Below, in pieces: positions 4,465-39,179 of a stretch of 39,179 nucleotides of DNA. The notes below the pieces were generated by a model that was not told the DNA's origin, did not search any database, and saw only the letters and a list, made by a program, of their open reading frames with translations. Source of the DNA: an uncultured bacterium (GTDB lineage Bacteria; Armatimonadota; HRBIN16); assembly GCA_938027655.1 (NCBI GenBank), contig CALJAP010000077.1, forward strand, positions 1 through 39,179, written 5' to 3'. Every line of letters starts with the position of its first letter. Position 1 is the stretch's first letter. A program made the translations under genes and the position numbers.

Positions 4465-5609
4465 TATGGCTCCTTAATGTCAAAGCGTAATGTGGTGTTG
4501 CCCACCCGAATGATGTCGCCCGAGTGTAGCCCCAGCGGTTTGTGCGGGGAGAGACGGCTATCGTTCACAGCAGTACCCGACGCACTGCCCAGGTCTTCTA
4601 TGCACCACTGTTTACCGTCCCAGCGGACGACCGCATGGCGCATCGCCACCTCTGATTCCTCCAGAACGATATCCGCCGTCAGCGCACGCCCGATTAACGC
4701 CTCGCTGGGCAGGGGGACCACATCCTGCTGCGGGGTGTCCGGGTGCAGGGTCAAAAAGGCAGGTGGACGCGACGAGATGGCTTCTGCAACGGGTGCTTCG
4801 CGCTTTTCGGCAGGCGGTTCGGTGTACTCAAAAACCAGCACCGTCTTGCCCATGCGGATACGATCGCCCGATCGCAGCACCTTGTTGTCCACCCGTTGTT
4901 CGTTCACGTACAGCCCATTGGTGCTCTGGAGGTCATAAATGACGTAGTTTCCCGCTACCGCATCCCACTCGATACGAGCGTGTCGGCGCGAAACCTGCCG
5001 GTCGGCCTCCAGCACTAGGTCACAGCCTGCGTTGCGCGAGCGTCCGATGATGACCGGTCGGCTTGCCAGAGGGAACAGAAGTTTTCCGTCCTCGCTTCTC
5101 AGCGCCGCTCGCGAGGCAGCCCCGGACGCCACATCAGTGGTGGAAGCAACAGGCGTGCTGGCGACGTTGGTGGCTTCTTCGACCGGCGTGAACCCCAGCG
5201 AGGGAGGTGTCACAGGCAACGGCACAGAGGGGTCGAACCGGGCGGTGATGCGCAGTGCCTGTCGGAGGGCGTTTGCAGGGGCTACAGGCTGCGCCACTAC
5301 CTCGCAGAGAATGCCTCCGCGCAGGCGGTAGCCCTCCTGTTGCAGCTCCTGCCACAGCGCGTCCGCCAGGTCTTGCGGTTGCAAGAAGGTGAGGTACGCT
5401 TCTTGCTCCTCCGGGTTCTGCAGGGCGATTTCCAGCTTGTAGCGGTTTGGCACGTACAGTTCGCCGTCCAGCCCTTCGATGCAGTGTTCTTCCGCCGCCA
5501 TGACCAGCCGACGTAACACCTCGCGCGGGTGCAGCTCGCCTCCTGTGCCGAAAAGCCCCTCGTACCAGTTTCCGAACAGCGTGTTGATGCGCTCGAACAG
5601 GTTGCGCAC
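4464..5609 (-). CDS. FhaA-like protein: DUF3662 N-terminal domain plus two FHA domains
   Basis: A 381-residue protein from a GTG at 5609; the frame is open further upstream, but that part runs antisense to the M20 gene and lacks a start with a ribosome binding site, whereas GGAAGGTGAGAGG precedes this GTG. Residues 1-125 match the DUF3662 domain of actinobacterial FhaA (short amphipathic start, then V-P-N-x-Y and L-x-x-x-D). A Ser/Thr/Ala-rich linker (126-172) leads to FHA1 (about 174-262; IGRS, SRRH, STNG) and FHA2 (about 284-377; IGRA, MRHAVV, SASGTAVN). FHA domains bind phosphothreonine, so this is a probable substrate or adaptor of the kinase encoded two genes downstream. Having two FHA domains is unusual compared with single-FHA FhaA. 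Confidence 0.92.
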   Translation of the reverse strand: MRNLFERINTLFGNWYEGLFGTGGELHPREVLRRLVMAAEEHCIEGLDGELYVPNRYKLEIALQNPEEQEAYLTFLQPQDLADALWQELQQEGYRLRGGILCEVVAQPVAPANALRQALRITARFDPSVPLPVTPPSLGFTPVEEATNVASTPVASTTDVASGAASRAALRSEDGKLLFPLASRPVIIGRSRNAGCDLVLEADRQVSRRHARIEWDAVAGNYVIYDLQSTNGLYVNEQRVDNKVLRSGDRIRMGKTVLVFEYTEPPAEKREAPVAEAISSRPPAFLTLHPDTPQQDVVPLPSEALIGRALTADIVLEESEVAMRHAVVRWDGKQWCIEDLGSASGTAVNDSRLSPHKPLGLHSGDIIRVGNTTLRFDIKEP

Positions 5610-5643
5610 GTGCCTCTCACCTTCCTGCGATACACTGCCTTTG

Positions 5644-5672
5644 ATTATATCCCGCGTTGCGTGTGGCGTCAA
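5644..5672 (-). promoter_or_regulatory. Strong sigma70-type promoter for the FHA/PP2C/kinase operon
   Basis: On the minus strand, TTGACG (5667-5672) is separated by 17 bases from a perfect TATAAT (5644-5649). Transcription would start near 5637, about 28 bases before the GTG of the FHA gene. It is the closest match to consensus in the window. Confidence 0.8.
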
Positions 5673-5745
5673 CCTCTGCGGTACCACAAGGTTTTCGGAT
5701 GTTTTGCGTTGAAAAAGGGATTGGATGGCAACGAGGGGGCAACGC

Positions 5746-6912
5746 ATGAACGAGATACCTCGACGCATTCTGCGGCTGCAAGAGGAGTTAATCGCTCTGC
5801 GCCACGACCTGCACGCCCATCCCGAGCTGGGCTTCGAGGAACAGCGCACGGCGGGCGTTGTGGCAGGTTGGCTGAGGAGGCACGGGCTGGAAGTGCGTGC
5901 AGGGGTCGCGGGCACCGGTGTGGTGGGCACTCTGCGCGGGGAGGCGGGTGCGGGTGCTGTGGTTGGCTTTCGCGCCGACATGGACGCTTTACCTATCGAG
6001 GAACAGAGCGACCTGCCTTACCGTTCGCAGCACCTCGGCAAGATGCACGCCTGCGGGCATGACGGGCACACCACCATCCTGCTGGGCGCGGCGGCGGTGC
6101 TGGCTGAGCTGCGCACGCAGCTGCGCGGGACAGTGCGCTTCTATTTCCAGCCGGCGGAGGAGGGCGTTTCGGGCGCGAAGGCGATGCTGGCAGAGGGTAT
6201 CCTGCAGGAAATGCCTCCCCGATGGGTGGTGGCGCTACACGGACGACCCGGACTGCCGCTGGGGAGTGTGGGCGTTCGTGCAGGCGCGATGATGGCATCG
6301 GCAGACACGTTCGACGTCTGGCTACAAGGCAGGGGCGGGCACGCCGCACTGCCGCACCTCACCAACGACCCGATTGTGGCTGGGGCGCAGCTGGTGCAAG
6401 CGATGCAGACGCTAGTGAGCCGCGAAAGCGCGCCTTCCGACCCCATCGTGCTGAGTGTGACGCAGTTCCACGCCGGTAATACCTACAATGTGTTGCCACA
6501 GGAAGCGCGTTTGGCGGGAACGGTGCGCTGTCTGCGCGAAGAGACACGGGGCAGGGTGAGAGAGCGCGTGGGGCAACTGGTGAGCGCGACCGCTCAGGTG
6601 TGGCATCTGGACGGGCGATTCGAGTGGTATGAGGGCGCGCCTGTTTTGTGGAACGACGAGAAGGTTGCCGCACGGATAGCGCAGGTGGCGGAAGAGGCTT
6701 TCGGTAAAGAGAGGGTAATACGGCTCGAGTATCCGCTGATGGGCGCAGAGGATTTTGCCCACTTTGCGCAGGCGGTTCCGTCGGCGATGTTTTTCCTCGG
6801 GCTGGGCGAGGTTGCGGACTGGCACACCGCCTGTTTTGATTTCCCTGACGAGGCGATTGCGCCGGGGGTGGAAATGTTCGTGCGGCTTGCGCTAGCGGAA
6901 TCGAGGACATAA
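5746..6912 (+). CDS. M20 family amidohydrolase (N-acyl amino acid / hippurate hydrolase type)
   Basis: A 388-residue cytoplasmic metallo-amidohydrolase of the M20D group. Motifs: LRHDLHAHPELGFEE near the start, FRADMDALPIEE, HACGHDGHTT (cysteine and histidine metal ligands), FQPAEEG with the catalytic/ligand glutamates, the lid domain with GRGGHAALPH, and the final MGAEDFAHFAQAVP. Such enzymes remove acyl groups from amino acids or act on indole conjugates; the substrate is not readable. The start at 5746 is preferred because GAGGGGG lies about 6 bases upstream; an ATG at 5725 is also in frame. A perfect hairpin follows the stop codon. The gene stands alone, divergent from the FHA operon. Confidence 0.93.
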   Translation: MNEIPRRILRLQEELIALRHDLHAHPELGFEEQRTAGVVAGWLRRHGLEVRAGVAGTGVVGTLRGEAGAGAVVGFRADMDALPIEEQSDLPYRSQHLGKMHACGHDGHTTILLGAAAVLAELRTQLRGTVRFYFQPAEEGVSGAKAMLAEGILQEMPPRWVVALHGRPGLPLGSVGVRAGAMMASADTFDVWLQGRGGHAALPHLTNDPIVAGAQLVQAMQTLVSRESAPSDPIVLSVTQFHAGNTYNVLPQEARLAGTVRCLREETRGRVRERVGQLVSATAQVWHLDGRFEWYEGAPVLWNDEKVAARIAQVAEEAFGKERVIRLEYPLMGAEDFAHFAQAVPSAMFFLGLGEVADWHTACFDFPDEAIAPGVEMFVRLALAESRT

Positions 6913-6940
6913 GGGCAGGGCGGCTCTGCCGCCCTGCCCT
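6912..6940 (+). terminator. Perfect hairpin after the amidohydrolase gene
   Basis: Arms AGGGCAGGGCGGC (6912-6924) and its exact complement (6928-6940) enclose a three-base loop, starting in the stop codon of the amidohydrolase. There is no T-tract, so it may halt transcription inefficiently or only protect the transcript end. Confidence 0.55.
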
Positions 6941-7005
6941 CCGCGCAGATGAACCGCTTTGGCATCCCTCCTCTCCGATGCCTCTGGTGTCCTTCGCCAG
7001 CCAAG

Positions 7006-7089
7006 TTAGAGGTATGCGCCCTCGCGTATCATGAGTATCACCAGTGCAATTGCCGCGATGGCCACACAGAGCGCAATAACGGACGACAT
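7006..7089 (-). CDS. Putative 27-residue single-helix membrane peptide
   Basis: A minus-strand frame from ATG 7089 to a TAA at 7006 encodes 27 residues beginning MSSVIALCVAIAAIALV and ending M-I-R-E-G-A-Y-L. GAGGTG lies about 7 bases before the ATG. Nearly the whole product is a hydrophobic helix with a short charged tail, like many bacterial single-pass microproteins. No family is recognised. Its layout resembles the small membrane gene at 4366-4464. Coding is supported only by the ribosome binding site and composition, so it remains tentative. The flanking bases 7090-7267 hold nothing else that I recognise. Confidence 0.4.
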   Translation of the reverse strand: MSSVIALCVAIAAIALVILMIREGAYL

Positions 7090-7267
7090 CTCGCCACACC
7101 TCGCTTCCGCATGCTAATAGGGTGAAAAGGGTACTCCTTGGGCATTCGCGCGTTCGTCTTCATAGAGGTCTTTCCACCGGAAGCGGCAGGTTGCTCCTGC
7201 ACATCCTGCGAGGTGCGCCGAAAACCGCGAAGGATACTGACGGTAAATTGCGCAGATGCCTGTTCAC

Positions 7268-10765: not shown

Positions 10766-13108
10766 CTAATGCCCCCCTGTGACGCCCGGAGCCGGTTTCG
10801 TGCGGGCTTTGGGCTGTTTGCCCGCCGCTACCGGTGCTGTGGACGGTTGCTGTTGTTCCTGCTGGAGCTCGGCGAAACGCCGACGCATGGCTATCCCCCC
10901 GCCCAGCATCATGATGATTGTGCCCAGCCAGACGAGGTTAATGAGCGGCTTGACCTTCACCTCCACCGGCACGATCACATGGTCGGGCATGGTGGTTTGC
11001 CCCGGCATGCCGAAGAAGTGAAGGATTACCGCGCGTTCGTTGGCATTGATTTCATCGGCAAAGATAGCCACTTCGCCGCCGCCGGGTAGCTTGGCGGGTT
11101 TCCAGCCTTTGCCGAACACCGCAATGGGAACCAGCTCCGTTTTTCTTCCCTTATATTCTACATCAAGCACTGCGCCGATGCTCATGTCGGCTGCGCCCAT
11201 CGCGCCCTGAATTTGGAAACTCTTGAAGTGAATGGTATAGTCACCCATTTTTTTGGTTTCGCCGCGGCGGATGGGTAGCGTTTTGCCCGGATCCTGCATC
11301 CGCTCGATGACGCCCCCGCCGTCGCTGCCGATGGCGATATACATGTCGTACAGCGCGTGCTTGTAGATGTGCGGCTCGGCAACGCGGCGCGGTTGCATCG
11401 GGTTGTGGGTGTCAAAATAGTAGACGGGACGTGCCTCAAAGCCTTTGTCGCCCTTCAAGCTTTCGAATTTGAGCCGTACCGCGTTGTCTTTGCCCAGCTC
11501 CTCATCGGGGTGTGTCATCCCTGCATAGCTGACCTTAAAGCCAAACATCTGGGCGGTCATGCCGTTGGTCAGCACCGCTTCCGTCTTTTGCTCGTAGAAC
11601 GTACTCGCTGCCGCGCCCAGCAACACCAGCCCCACGCCCACATGCGTCAGGTAGCCCCCCAGGCTCATCGGACTGCGCTTCGCCAGACGCCATACGAGAA
11701 TGGCGTTCGACAGGATGGTGAACGTCGCCAGCAGCATCAGGAAGAAGACGCCCACAGCCACAGGCAGCCTCATGAAGTACGAGACGAGAGCGACCACCAG
11801 CCCGATGACCAGCGTGGCGTACCAGGGCGCGGAGATACGCTGGACGAACACGTCGGTATTGTCCACCTTGCGCCAGCTCAGGAACGGAACCAGCCCTAGT
11901 AGCAACAGCATCAGGTAGGCGAAGGGCGCATTGGCAAGGTGGTAGTAGCGGATTTCCACGCTACTGCTCTGTTTGGCGATAAGCAGAGAGATGATGGGCA
12001 TAGACGCTCCGATAAGCGTCAATCCCGCAATCACCACCAGCGCGATGATGCCTAGCGAGAACGCTAGGTCGCGCGACAGAACACCTTCAGCGGTCTGCTT
12101 TGCAGGGATACTGCGCAGGCGGAACAGCCATAGTCCCAGCCCGCCGACGGTGTAAGTGAGTAGCATGGCGACCACCAGCCCCAGCGCACCTTTCGCCAGT
12201 GCGTCAAAGGCGTGTACCGAGGATTCGGCGAGGGCGCCGCTGCGCGTCATGTAGGTTCCGTAGAAAAACAGGGGAGCACCCAGCAGTGCCAGCAGCAGGT
12301 TGGAGCGGTGCAGTCCGCCGCGATTGCGTTGCACTACCAGCCCATGCATCAGCCCCGTGATGACCAGCCACGGCACCAGCGCGGAGTTTTCCACCGGGTC
12401 CCATCCCCAGAAGCCACCCCAACCGAGCGTCACGTATGCCCAGTAGCCACCCAGTATCAACCCTGCGCCCAGCGTTACCCAGCACAAGATAACAAAGGGC
12501 ATGGCAATCTGCGCCCAGCCATCCCAGTCCTTGCGCAACAGCGCGGCGATGGCGATGGAGAAGGGGATTGCCAGTGAAGCGAAGCCGATGAAGATGGTAG
12601 GCGGGTGTATCGCCATCCAGTAGTTCTGCAGGAGGGGATTCAGCCCCATGCCCTCTGGAGGCACCTCGCTGGGGGGATACAGCAGGAACGGCGACTGTTT
12701 GGTGAGAATCGCCATCAGGAAGGCGAGGACACTGCTATACACTGCCATTGTCAGCGGTTCGTATCGTTGCAGGCGGCGAATGAGCAGTAAGCCCAGCAAC
12801 GCCGTCCAGAACGCCCACAGCAGGAAACTACCTTCCTGCCCTGCCCAGGCGGAAGAGAGCTTGTAGTACCAGGGCAGGTCGCTGGAGCTGAAGTTAGCCA
12901 CATACACCACCTGAAAATCGCTGCGCAGACACAGCGCGACTAGGATGCCAAATGACGCCACCGCGCTGAAGGCCGCCAGCGCGTAAGCCCGCCTTGCCCA
13001 CAGAAGCCAGCGTTCCTGTTTGGTGGCAAGCGCGAACAACACCGTCGCCGCGATGGCACTTGCTGCGCCGAGATAAATGATGAGACGTCCCCATTCTGCT
13101 GCGTTCAT
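10766..13108 (-). CDS. ccmF: Cytochrome c maturation heme lyase subunit CcmF
   Basis: A 780-residue polytopic membrane protein that transfers heme from CcmE to apocytochrome c outside the cytoplasmic membrane. The heme-handling WWD motif is seen as GWGGFWGWDPVENSALVPW, flanked by conserved histidines (NYWMAIHPPTIFIGF; LVITGLMHG). About 14 hydrophobic segments cover residues 1-500, followed by a large extracytoplasmic domain (about 505-735) and a last helix near 737-755. It is longer than the 640-660 typical of proteobacteria. The C-terminus is basic and proline-rich. Its ATG overlaps the stop codon of ccmE by 4 bases. Without CcmH in the operon, it may act alone as the lyase. Confidence 0.96.
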   Translation of the reverse strand: MNAAEWGRLIIYLGAASAIAATVLFALATKQERWLLWARRAYALAAFSAVASFGILVALCLRSDFQVVYVANFSSSDLPWYYKLSSAWAGQEGSFLLWAFWTALLGLLLIRRLQRYEPLTMAVYSSVLAFLMAILTKQSPFLLYPPSEVPPEGMGLNPLLQNYWMAIHPPTIFIGFASLAIPFSIAIAALLRKDWDGWAQIAMPFVILCWVTLGAGLILGGYWAYVTLGWGGFWGWDPVENSALVPWLVITGLMHGLVVQRNRGGLHRSNLLLALLGAPLFFYGTYMTRSGALAESSVHAFDALAKGALGLVVAMLLTYTVGGLGLWLFRLRSIPAKQTAEGVLSRDLAFSLGIIALVVIAGLTLIGASMPIISLLIAKQSSSVEIRYYHLANAPFAYLMLLLLGLVPFLSWRKVDNTDVFVQRISAPWYATLVIGLVVALVSYFMRLPVAVGVFFLMLLATFTILSNAILVWRLAKRSPMSLGGYLTHVGVGLVLLGAAASTFYEQKTEAVLTNGMTAQMFGFKVSYAGMTHPDEELGKDNAVRLKFESLKGDKGFEARPVYYFDTHNPMQPRRVAEPHIYKHALYDMYIAIGSDGGGVIERMQDPGKTLPIRRGETKKMGDYTIHFKSFQIQGAMGAADMSIGAVLDVEYKGRKTELVPIAVFGKGWKPAKLPGGGEVAIFADEINANERAVILHFFGMPGQTTMPDHVIVPVEVKVKPLINLVWLGTIIMMLGGGIAMRRRFAELQQEQQQPSTAPVAAGKQPKARTKPAPGVTGGH

Positions 13109-13497
13109 TGTGAACTCTCCTGATACTCCTGCATCTGCTTACCCTGATACTTGGATGGGCACTTGTACAGGATTTTTTCTGCGATGAACACACCGCCTTG
13201 CATCTGTCCGATAGCCACGATCTCTGTGGCTTGTTCCACATTGCCCTGCGCCAGCTTGGGGTGCACGACGGGCAAGCGGTCGCCCTGAGCGTCTTCTATG
13301 GTAAATCGGGTCTCCCTCTGCACAGCGTCCATCTTCAGGGAACCCGCTACCAGTTTTCCTTTCACCTGCACTTTGCCGCTGCTCTGACGCGCCTGCGCTA
13401 CCGAGACATACGGCACGATGGTTTGGATCATCGCGCTTCCTGCGATGAAAAGCCCCAGCGCGATAAACCCCATAGCGAAAAGGTAAGCCTTTTTCAC
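13105..13497 (-). CDS. ccmE: Periplasmic heme chaperone CcmE, cysteine (CxxxY) type
   Basis: A 130-residue protein from a GTG at 13497 with AGGAGG 7 bases upstream. One N-terminal helix (about 5-25) anchors an OB-fold domain (KVQVKGKLV, TRFTIEDAQG, VVHPKLAQG, VAIGQMQGGVFIAEKIL). Where classical CcmE has the heme-binding histidine of H-x-x-x-Y, this protein has Cys113-Pro-Ser-Lys-Tyr117, the CxxxY form described from archaea and some bacteria whose System I lacks CcmH. The operon here also lacks ccmH, consistent with that variant. The short tail after the motif is rich in Gln and Glu. It overlaps the small ccmD-like gene by 4 bases. Confidence 0.93.
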   Translation of the reverse strand: MKKAYLFAMGFIALGLFIAGSAMIQTIVPYVSVAQARQSSGKVQVKGKLVAGSLKMDAVQRETRFTIEDAQGDRLPVVHPKLAQGNVEQATEIVAIGQMQGGVFIAEKILYKCPSKYQGKQMQEYQESSQ

Positions 13498-13622
13498 CGA
13501 CGCGCCTCCTCTTCCAGACGTTTTTCCAGTGCTCGCAAGCGCATGTCCAGCCAGAACAGGTATCCGAATATCCCTGCCCATATCAGCAGGGGGGTAATCA
13601 TGTAGGTAACCAGTGGGTTCAT
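13494..13622 (-). CDS. ccmD: CcmD-like small membrane protein
   Basis: A 42-residue frame beginning MNPLVTYMITPLLIWAG, with one hydrophobic helix (about 7-25) and a charged, coiled-coil-prone tail (LRALEKRLEEEARR). Its ATG overlaps the ccmC stop (ATGA) and its TGA overlaps the ccmE GTG, so it is locked between ccmC and ccmE exactly where ccmD sits in other genomes. CcmD helps release holo-CcmE from the CcmABC complex. Sequence conservation in this family is low; the call rests on position, size and topology. Confidence 0.8.
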   Translation of the reverse strand: MNPLVTYMITPLLIWAGIFGYLFWLDMRLRALEKRLEEEARR

Positions 13623-14320
13623 TGTATCTCTCCTGCCAGTGTCGCTTCAGCAATGGCGTCACGGTGGTACTGCTGGCGCAGGCGCGCCTCCGCCAGTTCC
13701 ACCTGCAACCTCAGACGAAACATCCAGACGAAAACCGCCAGTAGCCCCGCGAAGAAGCTCCACAGGGTGATGCGGTAGCTTGCGTCCAGCCCAGAGCGAG
13801 AAAAGAGCGTGTTCGTCGGGTGCAGCGACTCCACGATTCGGGGTAATATCCAGATGAGAAAAACCATAGCGGGAAAAGCGAGCAGGGCGTACGCTGCGGA
13901 AAGACGGGCACGCTTGCTCTTTTCCTCCACTGCTCCGCGCAGCACAAAGTATGCCGCGTACACCAGCATCAGCATCACAATAGATGTCTCGCGCGGGTCC
14001 CAGTTCCAGGCACTGCCCCACTGTTCCATGGCGAACAGCGAGCCGGTCACCGTTGCCAGCACCGCGAAGAGCATTCCCAGCTCCGCCGCGGCGTTCGCCT
14101 TCGCATCGGTCAACGGGTGTCGTGAGCGCAGATAGAGCCAGGAATAGGCGGCGTTCACGAGAAATGCGACGAAGGTCAGTATCGCGCAGGGCACATGAAA
14201 CACCACAATACGCGCGGCTTCAGGACTGCGAAAGCCCTGAGCGGGCGGAAGCCATAAAAAGGCGGCAACTATCGCCCCAGCGGTCCAGATACCTGTCAGT
14301 ATCTTGCCTGTTGTGCTCAT
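13619..14320 (-). CDS. ccmC: Heme transfer protein CcmC
   Basis: A 233-residue membrane protein with about six helices. The WWD-type motif reads GSAWNWDPRETS (position of the usual W-G-T-x-W-x-W-D-x-R), with conserved histidines before it (VVFHVP) and after it (ESLHPTNT). It presents heme to CcmE on the outer face of the cytoplasmic membrane. The ATG at 14320 is preferred over an in-frame GTG at 14326 because GGAG lies about 9 bases upstream. The gene lies 2 bases after ccmB and overlaps ccmD. The C-terminus is a charged helix (LRLQVELAEARLRQQ) longer than usual. Confidence 0.95.
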   Translation of the reverse strand: MSTTGKILTGIWTAGAIVAAFLWLPPAQGFRSPEAARIVVFHVPCAILTFVAFLVNAAYSWLYLRSRHPLTDAKANAAAELGMLFAVLATVTGSLFAMEQWGSAWNWDPRETSIVMLMLVYAAYFVLRGAVEEKSKRARLSAAYALLAFPAMVFLIWILPRIVESLHPTNTLFSRSGLDASYRITLWSFFAGLLAVFVWMFRLRLQVELAEARLRQQYHRDAIAEATLAGEIQ

Positions 14321-14322
14321 CC

Positions 14323-15009
14323 TCACTCGCTCCAGATGTGCTCGAACACCAGTAGAGACGCAGGCACAATCACCAGAATAAACCCCAGCAGCACCTGCAG
14401 GTCACCGGTCGCCACACGCCATGCTCCCTCGCTGAGCCATGCCGCTTTCGTGCCGTGAATCGCCACCAGCAAAGGAGGTAGCGCCACCGGAAACGATAAC
14501 ACGCCGAACAGCGCCCCCCGTGTGGTGGCTTTCGCCACAATCGCGCCAACCGCTGTGGTGGCGCATGCCAGCGCAGTGCTACCCAGCATGACCACCGTGA
14601 GGAACAGGCTGGCGCTTCGCACCGGCACCTCCAGCAACAACAGGTACAGCGGCACCGTCACCACACACAAACCCCACATTAACACCGTATTAAACGCCAG
14701 CTTTCCCACAAACACTCCCACCGGCGACACCGCCAGCCTCAGGGAGTCCGCTGTGCGCGTCTCCTCCTCCATGACAAATACGCGCGACAAACCCGCCACC
14801 GCTGCGAAGAAAACCACCACCCAGAGCAGAGCGGCTTTCACTTCGGCAGGCACGCCCGACGGGGGCGCCAGCGCAAACCCCGACGCCACCACCGATGTGA
14901 CCGCAAACAGCACCACCGCGCCCAGCGCCACCCGCGTGCGCAGCTCCAGTAGCCAGTCCTTCGCGAAGACGGCAAGCGCTTCATGCACCCAGCTGGACGA
15001 GCGGTTCAC
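14323..15009 (-). CDS. ccmB: Heme exporter/ABC transporter membrane subunit CcmB
   Basis: A 228-residue protein with six hydrophobic segments and the family motif region VFVMEEETRTADSLRLAVSP, where CcmB proteins have the 'E.(E)..G.L..L..SP' loop. It pairs with the ATPase CcmA in the complex that frees CcmE from CcmC. The start is taken as the GTG at 15009, which overlaps the end of ccmA by 29 bp; an in-frame GTG at 14988 is possible. Gene order ccmA-ccmB-ccmC is the standard one. Confidence 0.93.
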   Translation of the reverse strand: MNRSSSWVHEALAVFAKDWLLELRTRVALGAVVLFAVTSVVASGFALAPPSGVPAEVKAALLWVVVFFAAVAGLSRVFVMEEETRTADSLRLAVSPVGVFVGKLAFNTVLMWGLCVVTVPLYLLLLEVPVRSASLFLTVVMLGSTALACATTAVGAIVAKATTRGALFGVLSFPVALPPLLVAIHGTKAAWLSEGAWRVATGDLQVLLGFILVIVPASLLVFEHIWSE

Positions 15010-15601
15010 CGTAGCCCAGCTCCCGGGTGTCGTTTGTGGCGATGATAACGATGCCATGTTGTGCCTGCTCTCTGACCGTTTCGCGAATGAACTCCATTCC
15101 TGCCTCGTCCAGATTGCTACCCGGTTCATCGAGCAGCAGCACCGGCGGGCTATGCACCAGTGCGGTCAGCAGTTTGAGCCGTTGCACCATGCCGGTGGAG
15201 AAAGAGGCGAGCGGGTCATGCGCTCGCGCACGCAGTTTCACCCTCTCCAGCCATTGCAGCAGGTCACTATCTCGCACCGGCAACCCTCGTGCCCTGGCGA
15301 AAAAACGCAAGTTCTCCAGAGCGGTCAGCGGGCGATACAGGGCGATGTCGGGCGCGACCATGCCCACCGCCTGCCGCCTCTGGTGCGCTGTCAACCGTTG
15401 CCCATTGTGAAGGTACAGCACCTCGCCCTCTGTGGGCGTTAGTAGCCCCGCAACGATGCGGAGCAGAGTGCTCTTCCCGCTGCCGTTTGGTCCCAGTATC
15501 GTCCATGCTCCGGGCGCGGTGACCGTTGCCGATATGTCCCGCAGCACCACGTGCTCGTCGAAGACCTTGCTTATCCGCCGGAGCTCGATTTGCCAGTTCA
15601 T
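14981..15601 (-). CDS. ccmA: Heme exporter ABC ATPase CcmA
   Basis: A 206-residue ATP-binding subunit: Walker A GPNGSGKST (37-45), Q-loop region at A-V-G-M-V-A-P-D, signature FSTGMVQRL (133-142, with T for the usual second S and M for the usual Q-Q pattern, as common in CcmA), Walker B VLLLDEPGSNLD (154-165) and the switch position near T-N-D-T-R. A GGAGA ribosome binding site lies 5 bases before the ATG at 15601. It is the first gene of the ccmABCDEF-panD operon. A candidate -10 box lies 16 bases upstream. Confidence 0.95.
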   Translation of the reverse strand: MNWQIELRRISKVFDEHVVLRDISATVTAPGAWTILGPNGSGKSTLLRIVAGLLTPTEGEVLYLHNGQRLTAHQRRQAVGMVAPDIALYRPLTALENLRFFARARGLPVRDSDLLQWLERVKLRARAHDPLASFSTGMVQRLKLLTALVHSPPVLLLDEPGSNLDEAGMEFIRETVREQAQHGIVIIATNDTRELGYGEPLVQLGA

Positions 15602-32919: not shown

Positions 32920-33930
32920 CTACTGCTCCATAGCCGCTACGATGATAGAGACCACCTTGTTATCGTAGAGCTGGAACGCCACGTGATGATTGGGATAGCT
33001 CACGTACAGGGTGGCTCCCATGCTCTGGTGTTCTTTGGGCCAGCCATACGCGGCAACAACCTTCTGATAGGTATCGCCGAGCTTGATGCCGCGCGAAGTG
33101 CGTGCCAGTCCGGATTTGTCCTCGTAGCCAACCGCCTTCGCCTGCACCACGTAGCCGTCCTTGTTCACCAGAAACTCGTAGATAACGCCGCCCGGTCGCT
33201 CGTAAATGAGGGTGGTCTCCTGTTCGTACATCATGCCGCCCGGTGTGGTGCGCAAGCCGATGGAAGGCAAGCCAACGCCTGCGGGAGTGCCTCCCATGCC
33301 TGCCATGGCGGGCATACCGGGCGTCGCCGGGGTACCGGGCATCGGGGGCATACCGGGGCGCATGGGAGCACCGATACCGCCGGGCAGACCGGGCAAACCG
33401 GGAGCACCTGCCATCGGTGCGCCCATCATTAGACCGCCCGCCACCATCGCCATGCCTTCTTCCTCAGCCAGTCCTCCGCCAAAGCTTGGGGCTCCACCGC
33501 CTCCCAGCGCACCGAACCTGCCTCCGGCTGCCCTAAAACCTCCCGCGGCGGCGCCAACGCCTGCCATCGGAGGCATTCCGCCATACGCACCATACGATGG
33601 CATCCCGGGAGTGGGCCCCGTGCCCATGTAGCCGGAAACACCGGGCATACCGGGCATACCGGGTGCGCCTGCCAGCCCCGCACGTCCGGGTGCGCCTGCC
33701 ATGCCCGCTATACCTGCCTGTGCGCCCGGCAGGTTATATGCTACCTGTCCCACTGTAACCTGCGTAGGGTTGCCAAATCGCGCCAGCACGGTTTGCACTT
33801 TGGACAACATGCGGACGCCCAGAAACTGGCGTTCGATGGCGTGCGCCGGGTTTACCCACCCGAGCAAGCAAGCAGTGAACACAATACCTGCCACTCCGCC
33901 TTTTCGGAGCAAGCCTGCCATGCTCTTCAT
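32920..33930 (-). CDS. Secreted protein with collagen-like Gly/Pro/Met-rich insertion in a duplicated SmpA/BamE-like domain
   Basis: A 336-residue protein from an ATG with GGAGG 7 bases upstream. A signal peptide (cut near H-A-I-E at 30-33) precedes a module (36-66) with FLGVRMLSKVQTVLARFGNP. From about 68 to 232 the chain is low-complexity, with Gly-X-Y runs such as GAPGMPGMPGVSG and GAPGLPGLPGGIGAP and many Met and Pro. The end (234-336) has ERPGGVIYEFLVNKDGYVVQ and a second LGDTYQKVVAAYGWP...VAFQLYDNKVVSIIV. The two 'LG...V...(F/Y)G.P' modules look like a duplicated BamE/SmpA fold, with the collagen-like part inserted in the first. Function is unknown; a cell-surface structural role is inference. 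Confidence 0.8.
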   Translation of the reverse strand: MKSMAGLLRKGGVAGIVFTACLLGWVNPAHAIERQFLGVRMLSKVQTVLARFGNPTQVTVGQVAYNLPGAQAGIAGMAGAPGRAGLAGAPGMPGMPGVSGYMGTGPTPGMPSYGAYGGMPPMAGVGAAAGGFRAAGGRFGALGGGGAPSFGGGLAEEEGMAMVAGGLMMGAPMAGAPGLPGLPGGIGAPMRPGMPPMPGTPATPGMPAMAGMGGTPAGVGLPSIGLRTTPGGMMYEQETTLIYERPGGVIYEFLVNKDGYVVQAKAVGYEDKSGLARTSRGIKLGDTYQKVVAAYGWPKEHQSMGATLYVSYPNHHVAFQLYDNKVVSIIVAAMEQ

Positions 33931-34041
33931 CTGGTTTCCTCCCCTTCGTTCTTCGTTTCGCACCGAGAGAGCTTACTGGTGTGCACTCTTCGGCAACGGT
34001 AAACGGTTTTCCTGCCTGCGACCGGTAACTGTTTCTTTTAT

Positions 34042-34230: not shown

Positions 34231-34872
34231 ATGAAAACGACGCGAAGGCAGTTTCTGCGTTTATCTTTTCTCCTCGCCCCCGCCCTTGCCGGGTGTGGTG
34301 GGGCAGACAACCCCTATTATCAGCCTCCGCAACCGGATTTCTGGTTGACAGGAAGCGAAGAGCAAATCGCAGAGCAGACCCGAATGGCTGTCCAGTTCGC
34401 CGTGAACAGCCGGCAGAGGGTTCGTCCTGTCACTCTCGGGGCTGCGGGGCAGATTTTCCGAATCGAACCCACCGAGAAAGCAAATGTTATCAGGCTCTCC
34501 CGATGGGCGGCAGGAAAGACGGATCAAGTCGCCATCCGCTGGGCGCTGGACGGTATGAGCTTTGACAACCGACAGGGCGTTCGCCTCAGCTCGAGAGGGA
34601 TTACAGACTGGGTCCGCTGGGGAGTGAAAGCCATCGTTTTGCTTTTGATCGTGTGGCTGGGGGCAAGTGTGGCGAAGTTCATCATGGCAGCGATAGCCAC
34701 TGTCGCCTTCTACCTGCTTTTAGCCGCTATTCTGGTAACCGCAGTGGGAATAGCCCTCGAATTGATAAAACTCACAGGGCTAACCTGGGACGACGTGACG
34801 GCGTTTGTGCAGACGACCGTTACCGCGGTGGTCAACCTCCTGAGGGAGGTGGTAAACTCTGTCTCTCCTTAG
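34231..34872 (+). CDS. Tat-exported lipoprotein with C-terminal membrane helices
   Basis: A 213-residue protein starting MKTTRRQFLRLSFLL. The twin-arginine motif TRRQFLRL and the lipobox LAGC (Cys22) predict Tat export and lipid attachment. The segment 25-125 (YYQPPQPDFWLTGSEEQIAEQ; then PVTLGAAGQIFRIEP and VAIRWALDGMSFD) is likely extracytoplasmic and beta-rich. Two hydrophobic helices (about 134-152 and 158-180) and an amphipathic end follow. A lipoprotein that also has membrane helices is unusual. GGAAAAG lies directly before the ATG. No family is recognised. It is monocistronic and divergent from the collagen-like gene. Confidence 0.65.
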   Translation: MKTTRRQFLRLSFLLAPALAGCGGADNPYYQPPQPDFWLTGSEEQIAEQTRMAVQFAVNSRQRVRPVTLGAAGQIFRIEPTEKANVIRLSRWAAGKTDQVAIRWALDGMSFDNRQGVRLSSRGITDWVRWGVKAIVLLLIVWLGASVAKFIMAAIATVAFYLLLAAILVTAVGIALELIKLTGLTWDDVTAFVQTTVTAVVNLLREVVNSVSP

Positions 34873-35025: not shown

Positions 35026-36195
35026 GTGTCACGTACTACCACCCACATACAACGTGCTACCTCGATCATTCAGGGTGCTGCTCGTTTTGACCGGCGGACG
35101 AAACGGCTGGTGCAACGGCTGCACGCAGGCGATATCGCCATTATCGACCACCCCGATCTGGACGGTGTGGCGGCAGAGGCTCTGGCGGCGCAGCGGGTAA
35201 CAGCGGTTATCAACCTCTCTCCCTTTATCACAGGACGGTATCCCAGCTCGGGAGCCAGTATCCTGCTGCGTGCGGGCATCCCGCTGTATGAGTGCCACGA
35301 CGCTCATCTGGCGGAGGTTGTGCAGGAGGGAGACGCCGCTACCATCACGGGCAACACCCTGTGCTTGAGCCGATTGCCGGATGCCTCTTTCTCGCTGGAA
35401 CCTCTGAACGAAGAGCGCATTCAGCAGTTGCTCTTGCTTGCCCAGCAACGGTTGAAGGGCGAACTGCGCGCTTTCGCACAGAACACACTGGAGTACTTGC
35501 AGGAAGAAAGCGACGCTTTGCTGGATGTGCTGGAGGTGCCGGAAATCAGTACGTCGATAGCGGGACGCCATGCGGTGGTGGTGGTTCGTGGCGAGCGGTT
35601 CAAACAAGACCTTATCGCTATCCGCAACTACCTGCGCGAGATGCGCCCGGTGTTGATTGGGGTAGACGGGGGGGCAGACGCTCTGCTGGAGATGGGGTTG
35701 AAGCCCCACATCATTGTGGGCGATATGGACAGCGTGAGCGACAGGGCGTTGCGATGCGGTGCAGAGTTGATAGTGCATCAATACACGAGCGCAGAGCGCA
35801 CCTCGCCCGGTCTGGAGCGAGTGCAGCGGCTGGGGCTACCGCACACGGTGTGGCGCGCGCCCGGCACCAGCGAAGATATCGCCATGTTGCTGGCGTACGA
35901 GAAAGGCGCACAACTCATCGTAGCAGTGGGCACGCACTTCAGCCTGCTGGAGTTTCTGGAGAAAGGGCGACGGGGCATGTCCAGCACTTTTCTGACACGT
36001 CTGCGCGTGGGGGATAGGCTGGTGGACGCCAAGGGGGTAAGCCGACTCTATCCCCGGCGGTTCGCCTGGCGCGAGTTCGGCTGGCTGTTCGTGGCGGCGA
36101 TGATGCCGGTGGTGGTGGCGTTTCTGCTGTCACCGGTGGGGCGCGACCTCGTTCGCCTGCTGTATGTGTGGCTACGTCTACGTCTGCACTTTTAG
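35026..36195 (+). CDS. steA: SteA-like putative cytokinetic ring protein (thiamin pyrophosphokinase-like fold)
   Basis: A 389-residue protein matching actinobacterial SteA: GDIAIIDHPDLDGVAAEAL, ITGRYPSSGASILLRAGI, then the thiamin-pyrophosphokinase-like core LIGVDGGADALLEMGLKPHIIVGDMDSVSD, GTSEDIAMLLAYEKGA, IVAVGTHFSLLEFLEKGRRGMSSTFLTRLRVGDRLVDAKGVSRLY, and a C-terminal hydrophobic helix (about 352-372). In Corynebacterium SteA and SteB form a membrane complex that activates peptidoglycan hydrolysis at daughter-cell separation. Here the same gene pair occurs in an apparently diderm genome. It starts at a GTG that falls at the predicted transcription start. The next gene begins 14 bases after the stop. 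Confidence 0.9.
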   Translation: MSRTTTHIQRATSIIQGAARFDRRTKRLVQRLHAGDIAIIDHPDLDGVAAEALAAQRVTAVINLSPFITGRYPSSGASILLRAGIPLYECHDAHLAEVVQEGDAATITGNTLCLSRLPDASFSLEPLNEERIQQLLLLAQQRLKGELRAFAQNTLEYLQEESDALLDVLEVPEISTSIAGRHAVVVVRGERFKQDLIAIRNYLREMRPVLIGVDGGADALLEMGLKPHIIVGDMDSVSDRALRCGAELIVHQYTSAERTSPGLERVQRLGLPHTVWRAPGTSEDIAMLLAYEKGAQLIVAVGTHFSLLEFLEKGRRGMSSTFLTRLRVGDRLVDAKGVSRLYPRRFAWREFGWLFVAAMMPVVVAFLLSPVGRDLVRLLYVWLRLRLHF

Positions 36196-36209
36196 GGAGA
36201 AGGCACGGC

Positions 36210-37076
36210 ATGTTTGCAGACCTACGCTACCATCTGGTGAGCCTGGCGGCGGTGTTCCTTGCGCTGGCAGTGGGAATGCTTGTCGGAGGGCTGTTTTTGA
36301 ACACCGCGCCGACCGAAACGCAGCAACGGCTGATCCGGCGCATTCAGGAAGACCTTGCCCGTATCACCGCCGAGAGCGACCGCAACCGACGCGACTTCGA
36401 GCGCATGGAGCAGGCGTTGAGGGAGCTGGTGCCTCGTCTGGTCAAGCAACGGCTGAAAGCACGCCGGGTAGCGGTGGTGCAGACGGGCGACGACGATCGC
36501 GCGCTGGCAGATACGCTGAAAGCACTGCGCGACGCCGGCGCGGAAACCGCATCGGTCACGGTGGTGACCAATCGCTGGCTGGAGATGAACGACGAAGAGA
36601 GAGCACGCCTTATCCGCAGGCTGCGCACCCTCAAGCCAAACCTGCCGGAAGATTTCAGCGCGGTGGTCAAAGCGCTGGCGAACGGAGTGGCGCTATACGG
36701 TTACGACCGGGCGGTGGAGATACTGCATCGCGAAGGGCTGGTACGCGCTTCGGGCGATTACACGTTGCCCTGTCGCTATGTGGTAATCGTGGGAGGCAGC
36801 GCCGCCCCCGAAAGCACTCGTGCGGCGGAGGTTGACCGCCCGCTCATCCGGCAGTGGCAGGCAGTGGGCATCGAGGTAGTGGCGGTGGAGCGGCGCGATT
36901 GCGCCGGTTCACATGTGTCGGTGTATCGGGAGACAGACGTTCCCAGTGTAGACTGTATCGACACCGCGCTGGGACAACTATCGCTGCCCTTCCTGTTCGG
37001 TGCGGAGAGCGCGGCGTATGGAGTGAAAGAGAGCGCGGAGCGGGTTATTCCCGACACGCTTCTGGAGACGAAATGA
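36210..37076 (+). CDS. steB: SteB/MctB-like copper transporter family (DUF3186) protein
   Basis: A 288-residue protein from an ATG after GGGAGAAGG. A single N-terminal helix (LRYHLVSLAAVFLALAVGML) is followed by a coiled coil (about 35-80) and an extracytoplasmic alpha/beta domain with AVVQTGDDDRALADTL, VVIVGGSAAPES and VAVERRDCAGSHVSVY, ending near D-C-I-D-T-A-L-G-Q. This is the MctB/SteB family; 'copper transporter' is a misleading name for most members. It partners SteA in cell separation. It overlaps the next gene (ATGA). Confidence 0.88.
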   Translation: MFADLRYHLVSLAAVFLALAVGMLVGGLFLNTAPTETQQRLIRRIQEDLARITAESDRNRRDFERMEQALRELVPRLVKQRLKARRVAVVQTGDDDRALADTLKALRDAGAETASVTVVTNRWLEMNDEERARLIRRLRTLKPNLPEDFSAVVKALANGVALYGYDRAVEILHREGLVRASGDYTLPCRYVVIVGGSAAPESTRAAEVDRPLIRQWQAVGIEVVAVERRDCAGSHVSVYRETDVPSVDCIDTALGQLSLPFLFGAESAAYGVKESAERVIPDTLLETK

Positions 37077-37771
37077 AGCGTGTGTTTGCGGTGGTGCCGG
37101 CGCATAACGAGGCGCAGACGGTGGCAGAAACGGTGCGCGCGCTGCTGGCATTGCCTGCGCAGGTGGTGGTGGTTGCCGATGCGTGCGCAGATGACTCCGC
37201 CGAACGCGCCAGCGAAGCAGGGGCAACGGTTCTGGTGCGGAGTGGGCGAGGGGACAAGGCGCGCGCGCTGGCAAAAGGCTTGCAGTGGGTGGCGCAGCAA
37301 CAGCCGTCCGACGACGACGTGGTGCTGCTGGTGGATGCCGACGTGGGAGCCAGCGCGGGTGAGGTGGCTCCCCTGCTGGAGGCGGTGCGCCGCGGCGAGG
37401 CAGATATGGCTATTGGCGTCTTGCCTCCGGCGGGGCGACAGGGCGGTTTCGGGCTGGTGGTGCGGTTCGCGCGGTGGGTGCTGTTGCGCCGGACGGGCAG
37501 GCGATTCCGCGCTCCTTTGAGCGGTCAGCGGGCGATACGATGGCGCACGCTTCAACAGCTGAGCGCACTGGCGGGCGGCTTTGGGGTAGAGGTGGGGATG
37601 AGCGTTGACCTGATGCGTCTGGGCGCACGGGTGCAGGAGATCGATGTGCGCATGACACATCGGCACACAGGTAGAAGCTGGCGAGGCTTCCTGCACCGGG
37701 CGCGGCAGGGCTGGCACGTTTTGCTTGCCGGTGCAGGGCGAAGGCAGGTGAAGCTATGGACGCACGAGTGA
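37073..37771 (+). CDS. Glycosyltransferase family 2 protein
   Basis: A 232-residue GT-A enzyme starting MKRVFAVVPAHNEAQTVAETV with the nucleotide-binding strand, V-V-A-D-A-C-A-D-D-S and the metal-binding LLVDADVGA. A short C-terminal part (LSGQRAIRW, FGVEVGMSVDLMRLG, M-T-H-R-H-T-G-R) completes the fold without membrane helices. GGAG precedes the ATG, which overlaps the steB stop. GT2 members next to steAB are probably involved in making an envelope glycan or glycolipid; donor and acceptor are unknown. The next gene overlaps by 16 bases. Confidence 0.9.
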   Translation: MKRVFAVVPAHNEAQTVAETVRALLALPAQVVVVADACADDSAERASEAGATVLVRSGRGDKARALAKGLQWVAQQQPSDDDVVLLVDADVGASAGEVAPLLEAVRRGEADMAIGVLPPAGRQGGFGLVVRFARWVLLRRTGRRFRAPLSGQRAIRWRTLQQLSALAGGFGVEVGMSVDLMRLGARVQEIDVRMTHRHTGRSWRGFLHRARQGWHVLLAGAGRRQVKLWTHE

Positions 37772-38595
37772 TACCGATTGTGTTGTTTGTCTCTGCGCCG
37801 TTCGTGGTGCTACTGGGCGGTATTGCGCTCTTCCCCAAACTGTGCCGTCGCTGGGGATGGCTGAAGCAGAACTACCGCGGGGCGGTCGTGCCATGCAGTT
37901 ATGGGGTCATCTGGTGGGCGTTCTGCACGGTGCTGTACGCGGAGCTGGCATGGGTGTCTGCTCCGGAGACGCGCCCGCTGTCGCTGGCGTTTCTGGTGGC
38001 GGCGTTTGGCTTCGGACTGTTGGGCTTGATAGACGACCGGTGGGGCGACTCTGCCTCCAAAGGTTTGCACGGTCACGTGAGAGCTCTACGGCAGGGCAGG
38101 ATAACGACGGGGCTGCTGAAGGCGGTGGGGGGATTGGCGGTGTCGCTGGTTGCCGCGTGGCTGTTGCAGGGCGGATGGGCGACGTTGCTCGGCGGTGTGA
38201 CCGTTGCGCTGATGGCGAACGCGATAAACCTGCTGGACATGCGCCCGGGCAGGGCGGTATCGGTGTTTTTGGTGTTATCGGCGATGGTGGTGTTCTACTT
38301 ACTGCTGAGCCAGCAGGCGTTGACGGCGGCGATGCTGGGTTTCCTGATGGCGGCGGCGCTGTTACTGCGTCGGCACGATGCGGGTGGGGGCGCGATGATG
38401 GGCGATGTGGGTTCCAACTTGCTGGGCGGGGTGCTGGGCGTGTCGCTGGTGGCAGGTGTGCCGCTGTGGGCGCAGGCGGTGGTGCTGGCGTTGCTGGTGG
38501 CGCTGCATGTGGCGGCGGAGCGCGTTTCCCTGAGCCGGTGGATCGAGGATACCCCCTGGGCGCGCCAGCTGGACCGGATGACGGGGGTGAGGTAG
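37756..38595 (+). CDS. MraY/WecA-like polyprenyl-phosphate sugar-1-phosphate transferase (GT4 family)
   Basis: A 279-residue polytopic membrane protein with about 9-10 helices. Signature loops of the UDP-HexNAc:polyprenol-P transferase family are GLLGLIDDRWGD (the aspartate pair that binds magnesium), ANAINLLDMRPGRA (N-x-x-N-x-x-D type) and GGGAMMGDVGSNLLGGVLGV (nucleotide loop). The HIHH-like loop of MraY/WecA is not seen and the protein is shorter than MraY (about 320-360), so it may be a divergent member. As the last gene of the steA operon, it could start the lipid-linked glycan that the GT2 enzyme extends; this is inference. Confidence 0.85.
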   Translation: MDARVIPIVLFVSAPFVVLLGGIALFPKLCRRWGWLKQNYRGAVVPCSYGVIWWAFCTVLYAELAWVSAPETRPLSLAFLVAAFGFGLLGLIDDRWGDSASKGLHGHVRALRQGRITTGLLKAVGGLAVSLVAAWLLQGGWATLLGGVTVALMANAINLLDMRPGRAVSVFLVLSAMVVFYLLLSQQALTAAMLGFLMAAALLLRRHDAGGGAMMGDVGSNLLGGVLGVSLVAGVPLWAQAVVLALLVALHVAAERVSLSRWIEDTPWARQLDRMTGVR

Positions 38596-39006: not shown

Positions 39007-39017
39007 CCTTTATCGTC

Positions 39018-39179
39018 GTTTCAATCCCTTATAGGTAGGCTCGTAACTGCACCTGTGTGGACAGCTCGCCTTCCAGCTGTCGTGTTTCAATCCCTTATAG
39101 GTAGGCTCGTAACTCGAGGACGCCGGAGAGATCTCCGGCGTCCCGGTGGTTGTTTCAATCCCTTATAGGTAGGCTCGTA
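39018..39179 (-). CRISPR. CRISPR array edge: three 30-nt repeats (last cut by the window) and two spacers
   Basis: Identical 30-bp repeats begin at 39018, 39084 and 39152 (the third has 28 bases inside the window). The repeat starts GTTTCAATCCC and ends GGCTCGTAAC. Spacers are 36 bp (39048-39083) and 38 bp (39114-39151). The complement of the repeat ends in ATTGAAAC, the usual 5' handle of crRNAs in type I-B/III-like systems, so the array is probably transcribed on the minus strand from a leader to the right. The end seen here would then be the old, leader-distal end. No cas genes are in the window. Spacer 2 is a palindrome. Confidence 0.95.

Follow-up and report, generated by a model that had tools for sequence, protein, structure and literature searches.

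Why should two proteins known from the separation of actinobacterial daughter cells be encoded next to two glycosyltransferases in an uncultured armatimonadote? The question is raised by a contig of 39,179 nucleotides (CALJAP010000077.1 of assembly GCA_938027655.1; the whole stretch is called the window here), in which genes for SteA and SteB are followed directly by those for a family 2 glycosyltransferase (GT2) and for a small membrane transferase with an MraY-type fold (GT4). In C. glutamicum and M. tuberculosis, SteAB is a complex that spans the membrane and positions RipA (PMC6705760, PMC12977500), and defects in cell separation are the phenotypes reported for SteA and SteB in C. glutamicum and for steA in mycobacteria (PMC6705760, PMC12338722, PMC12977500). 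According to a preprint, mycobacterial SteA also works via MtrB, without SteB (PMC12338722). A paper from 2026 describes SteAB as largely restricted to Actinobacteria, with further examples in some Clostridia beside spo0A; glycosyltransferase partners are not mentioned there, and 'glycosyl' occurs nowhere in its text (PMC12977500). Our literature searches, whose coverage did not extend to subscription papers, returned no paper describing the four-gene set.

The answer we prefer, and hold at about an even chance, is that SteA, SteB, GT2 and GT4 are one co-inherited envelope system which would couple the synthesis of a polyprenyl-linked glycan with the remodelling of the septal wall, and of which mycobacterial SteAB would be a reduced form. 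The evidence that carries it is the co-occurrence of SteA (counted as present when over the profile cut-off) with GT4 in three phyla. Among 201 genomes of Armatimonadota, 100 encode both proteins and 94 neither, leaving five with SteA alone and two with GT4 alone; the corresponding figures are 74, 96, six and two for 178 Actinomycetota, and 118, 58, two and one for 179 genomes from the phylum of Desulforamulus. Fisher p values range from 1e-40 to 1e-48 across the three phyla and are descriptive only, shared ancestry being ignored. Both genes are jointly absent, furthermore, from some members of three families (f5, f13 and f14) whose relatives carry both, and the association is therefore not a single-clade effect. 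SteA, SteB and GT4 are all present in 98/201 Armatimonadota and 116/179 genomes of the Desulforamulus phylum, with partial sets in nine and five genomes, respectively.

The genes are also physically linked. Of the 100 Armatimonadota that have both, 68 carry GT4 on the strand of SteA and no more than 8 kb downstream of it, and in a sample with roughly one representative per family most loci have the four genes side by side in the order seen in the window. Searching 84,980 species genomes for the GT4 motif NLLD[LVM]RP[GS]RA gave no fewer than 594 places; because SteA-SteB-GT2-GT4 stand in order at 62 of the best 80 of these places (our own count), the locus is not a product of chance. Carriers of the full set include Clostridioides difficile, Peptostreptococcus, Desulforamulus, Syntrophomonas, Tumebacillus and Halothermothrix, a genus of the diderm Halanaerobiales. 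The published view that SteAB is largely restricted to Actinobacteria (PMC12977500) is thus not borne out by our surveys. An initial annotation of this DNA, made from the letters alone, had asked for a survey of co-occurrence across phyla and had named absence of GT2 and the transferase from relatives, or their distance from steAB, as what would count against the grouping; the grouping came through this check. Its suggestion of an uncharacterised envelope-glycan and division set gains support in the process, but the set extends beyond diderms to monoderm Clostridia, to Tumebacillus and to many Actinomycetota.

Co-inheritance could, in principle, be no more than history: SteAB and the two transferases might have separate functions and descend together from an ancestral operon, kept together by inheritance alone. 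The SteA tree is indeed largely vertical over the three phyla, and the gene order is ancient and stable. Set against this, the genes are retained even where they have been scattered: in the other 32 Armatimonadota they are unlinked or on separate contigs and both are kept (the closed genomes G059 and G084 are examples), and no fewer than 16 genomes of the Desulforamulus phylum have SteB at a distance from SteA. Together with the joint absences described above, this leads us to regard inheritance alone as improbable.

Several of the discordant genomes have mundane causes. Contig ends or sequence gaps explain five (G482, G511, G159, G501, G162), and three others (G164, G312, G331) encode divergent GT4 paralogues that lack the motif. 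Leaving aside four further genomes that are discussed below, those with SteA only comprise five Mycobacteriales-type Actinomycetota, three of them on contigs of 5-6 Mb, and one armatimonadote (G173).

Within the window itself (Table 1), the genes lie on one strand with 14 nt between SteA and SteB, a 4 nt overlap of SteB with GT2 and a 16 nt overlap of GT2 with GT4, as the initial annotation described, and all four have profile matches. The SteB reading frame has its first start at GTG 36168, which would overlap SteA; the family N-terminus MIDxRYHxxSLVAVFLALAxG fits, by alignment, at ATG 36210 (MFADLRYHLVSLAAVFLALAVG), and this is therefore the likely start. The lipopolysaccharide (LPS) enzymes that had been noted in this genome are likewise real: the window encodes a lipid A acyltransferase along with two members of the GT9 heptosyltransferase family, and LpxC is on another contig. 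Judged by gene content, the host, a Chthonomonadia bacterium (Armatimonadota), is an LPS diderm.

Table 1. Genes of the SteA-SteB-GT2-GT4 locus, with positions in the window.
Feature	Position	Strand	Description	Pfam
SteA	35026..36195	+	flexible N-terminal domain, TPK-like nucleotide-pocket domain, C-terminal transmembrane (TM) helix	
SteB (MctB family)	36210..37076	+	one N-terminal TM helix, then exported domain	PF11382
GT2, glycosyltransferase family 2	37073..37771	+	GpgS/MpgS/DPMS/ArnC-like fold	PF00535
GT4	37756..38595	+	compact MraY/WecA/DPAGT1-fold membrane transferase	PF00953

What kind of enzymes are the two transferases? GT4 (279 aa) matches its Pfam family with 37.3 bits (cut-off 27), and a profile built from 20 members finds MraY as its sole match in the PDB. 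Its AlphaFold2 model (pLDDT 93.5, pTM 0.90) retrieves only DPAGT1 and MraY above noise in Foldseek, at TM-scores of about 0.6. GT4 thus shares with MraY, WecA and DPAGT1 the fold, the polytopic membrane topology and the DD, NxxN and GD motifs. An alignment of 78 members shows little or no variation at D93-D94, K122, N155, N158, D161, R163-P164-x-R166, G216-D217, G106-H107 and T117-T118-G119; the family is thus well conserved and retains the acidic residues of the superfamily, as expected for what is predicted to be an active enzyme. It differs from all three in being shorter, in having an invariant GxxGH and a near-invariant TTG, and in carrying an NLLDxRPGRA-type motif, found throughout the family, in place of NxxNLxDGxDGL. 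The histidine loop, whose absence from the window protein had already been remarked upon, is missing from the subfamily as a whole: no HHH motif occurs in the aligned members. On these sequence grounds GT4 is neither MraY nor WecA, and would represent a new subfamily of MraY-fold transferases.

GT2 scores 54.7 bits against PF00535 and has a DxD within DADVG as well as a C-terminal HRHTGR..GFLHR..Q. It falls below every equivalog cut-off (AglJ, the best profile match, 82.8/325 bits; GpgS 49.8/262; PpgS 43.5/370). Foldseek with a fused homologue returned GpgS, MpgS, dolichyl-phosphate mannose synthase (DPMS) and ArnC, and folds of this kind belong to UDP- or GDP-sugar enzymes. By structure and profile, then, GT2 resembles GpgS/MpgS, DPMS, ArnC, AglJ and PpgS in fold and nucleotide-sugar site, and is set apart from them by its own C-terminal motif, HR.TGR..GF.HR..Q. 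GT2 and GT4 form one polypeptide in four armatimonadote loci (L041, L045, L061, L199) and one actinomycetote locus (L175). A model of the fusion has a pTM of 0.89, although the relative placement of its domains is backed by only four fused rows.

The AglJ match bears on a second alternative, in which the transferases belong to a glycopolymer pathway of the wall-polymer or S-layer-glycan type and SteAB is an assembly factor for its export or ligation machinery, with no part in division. Some Actinomycetota speak for it: between SteAB and GT4 they encode MurJ, GT1-type transferases, a PMT_2 protein and a polytopic protein whose N-terminal domain is exported; a MurJ-family flippase gene occupies 5497-7128 of one such locus (L173). 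At most Bacillota and Armatimonadota loci the four genes nevertheless stand alone, and the published SteA and SteB phenotypes concern cell separation, so that we think this alternative unlikely. Separately, a protein of about 750 aa often adjoins GT4 in Actinomycetota (L166 7313-9547, L167 9128-11425 and L173 3182-5500; also L095, L168, L165, L085 and L136). Its exported N-terminal part looks alkaline-phosphatase-like by eye and is followed by about ten C-terminal TM helices; it has no Pfam match, and is possibly an envelope phosphotransferase.

If the four proteins do form one system, SteA may be the point of contact between them. The window SteA matches the NCBIfam equivalog NF040608 over its full length (468.4 bits against a cut-off of 150; residues 15-385), scores 50 bits against PF12555 (SteA-like_C) and matches the crystal structures 9hmy and 9hmz of SteA-like proteins. 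A single TM-like stretch (349-373) lies C-terminal to the predicted cytosolic core, and the core retains VDGGAD, GDMDS and GTSEDIA, which resemble motifs of thiamine pyrophosphokinase (TPK); the SteA pocket has been likened to the nucleotide site of that enzyme (PMC12977500). V213-D218, G232-S236, G280-D284, H304, K313 and G317-M318 are almost invariant in 133 SteA proteins, a set which takes in all except the Mycobacteriales-type clade and that of G173. At 28 chosen conserved positions, the five Mycobacteriales-type proteins, one of which (L158) is close to structure 9hmy, and the G173 protein show 10-17 losses, as against 0-4 in the other 133, and all six come from genomes without GT4. CgSteA was stabilised by GDP or UDP and not by ADP or triphosphates, and MtSteA gave no clear answer (PMC12977500). 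Because GT2-type enzymes of such a fold release UDP or GDP, and because CgSteA responds to those same diphosphates, we suggest SteA as a sensor of the transferase pathway.

The same residues could be read differently: SteA might itself be an enzyme, diphosphokinase-like or nucleotide-processing, which works in succession with GT2 and GT4, SteB being a scaffold or exported partner and hydrolase control in Mycobacteriales secondary. TPK-type DGGAD, GDxDS and SEDxA are near-invariant in the SteA of GT4-bearing genomes, the TPK_catalytic profile matches the window protein with 33 bits, and there is a weak sequence match to the 6-hydroxymethyl-7,8-dihydropterin pyrophosphokinase 8sd5. Sequence, however, reveals just a single lobe of the two in a TPK-type site; in published work SteA is anchored in the membrane and binds SteB, and no activity has been reported. 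We consider a catalytic SteA the less probable reading, albeit a more credible one than either of the alternatives above.

SteB scores 142.7 bits against its Pfam family (cut-off 25.6) and has a single, N-terminal TM-like stretch (5-34). The window pair thus resembles SteAB of C. glutamicum and M. tuberculosis in that both proteins are full-length homologues, encoded adjacently on the same strand and with the same TM layout. It departs from the mycobacterial SteAB-RipA arrangement in the presence of GT2 and GT4, in the TPK-like residues kept by SteA and in the counterpart of the RipA-docking loop (MtSteB residues 139-153), which is 12 residues shorter in the window SteB (the alignment is uncertain there in the wider set). 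Many loci without SteB between SteA and GT2 had suggested that SteB is dispensable and that the core is SteA-GT2-GT4; this idea was dropped when a genome-wide search located SteB elsewhere in nearly all such genomes.

Taken as one system, the four proteins might work as follows. GT4, as a putative polyprenyl-phosphate phosphosugar transferase, and GT2, as a putative nucleotide-sugar transferase, would make a polyprenyl-linked sugar or phosphosugar at the inner membrane face. SteA, a cytosolic dimer with a one-helix anchor, would sense this pathway through its TPK-like pocket, the ligand probably being a nucleotide diphosphate or donor released or used by GT2 and GT4. Its state would be relayed through the SteA and SteB membrane helices to the exported SteB, which would then license local wall remodelling during daughter-cell separation; both the direction of this signal and its septal site are suppositions of the model. 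Mycobacteriales would have lost the transferases and many constrained residues of SteA and gained the RipA-docking loop of SteB, leaving a regulator of RipA alone. We infer loss in this clade because the full set is widespread and the clade is nested within Actinomycetota.

A number of observations weigh against this proposal. Intact SteA is encoded without a detectable GT4 in four genomes (G030, which is 80% complete, G096, G139 and G358). Incomplete assembly is the likely cause; the nearest relatives of G358 have GT4 about 9 kb away, past the end of its contig. Some Actinomycetota have no GT2 at the locus. No RipA-like hydrolase is present among the three NlpC/P60 proteins of the host genome (other hydrolase families were not searched); read by eye, these have LysM/SH3-like N-termini and no N-terminal coiled coil. 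In GT4-less SteA, conserved positions have been lost at similar rates within the TPK-motif segments (12/31) and elsewhere (12/38; p 0.62), and we have abandoned the idea that erosion is specific to the pocket: these proteins may instead reflect a general loss of constraint. Only two independent changes on the SteA tree underlie the residue loss, leaving two pairs for an independent-pairs test, and the G173 protein sits on a very long branch. Finally, the nucleotide-binding result comes from C. glutamicum, whose SteA is itself a member of the GT4-less clade.

Other features of these loci are recorded here for completeness. The Clostridia described beside spo0A (PMC12977500) have the same SteAB genes, with the order spoIVB-spo0A-steA in C. 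difficile and spo0A upstream of steA in Halothermothrix. One record titled Armatimonadetes (L102, HOT.MB2.58) shares with Clostridia a spoIVB gene upstream of steA, and is likely misnamed or misbinned. Just upstream of steA in the window, 34231-34872 encodes a putative lipoprotein or Tat-type exported protein (MKTTRRQFLRLSFLLAPALAGCGG) with no Pfam match and no homologue at the other loci examined. On the - strand, 32920-33963 encodes a protein that has no Pfam match and contains a long stretch of low complexity, collagen-like and rich in Gly, Pro and Met, and cytochrome c maturation genes (ccmF, ccmE, ccmC-like and ccmB) of this LPS-diderm armatimonadote lie on the - strand at 10766-15129. 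An apparent CRISPR array begins at 39017-39179, with three GTTTCAATCCCTTATAGGTAGGCTCGTAAC-type repeats and spacers, and continues past the window end.

Somewhat more tentatively than the existence of the system itself, we suggest that Armatimonadota, Bacillota and Actinomycetota share an ancient polyprenyl-glycan system with SteA as its nucleotide-reading (or catalytic) subunit, in which a lipid-linked intermediate made by GT4 would gate the splitting of the septal wall and of which SteAB-RipA would be a reduced descendant. What looks unusual is the arrangement in Corynebacterium and Mycobacterium, with SteAB only. Given a near-obligate transferase partner, the SteA ligand is best sought in hosts whose pocket is intact, among the nucleotide-sugar or lipid-linked products of GT2 and GT4. 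If our proposal is correct, a supposedly actinobacterial separation system would span several phyla, LPS diderms included, and a new subfamily of the MraY fold would be added as a regular partner of SteAB.

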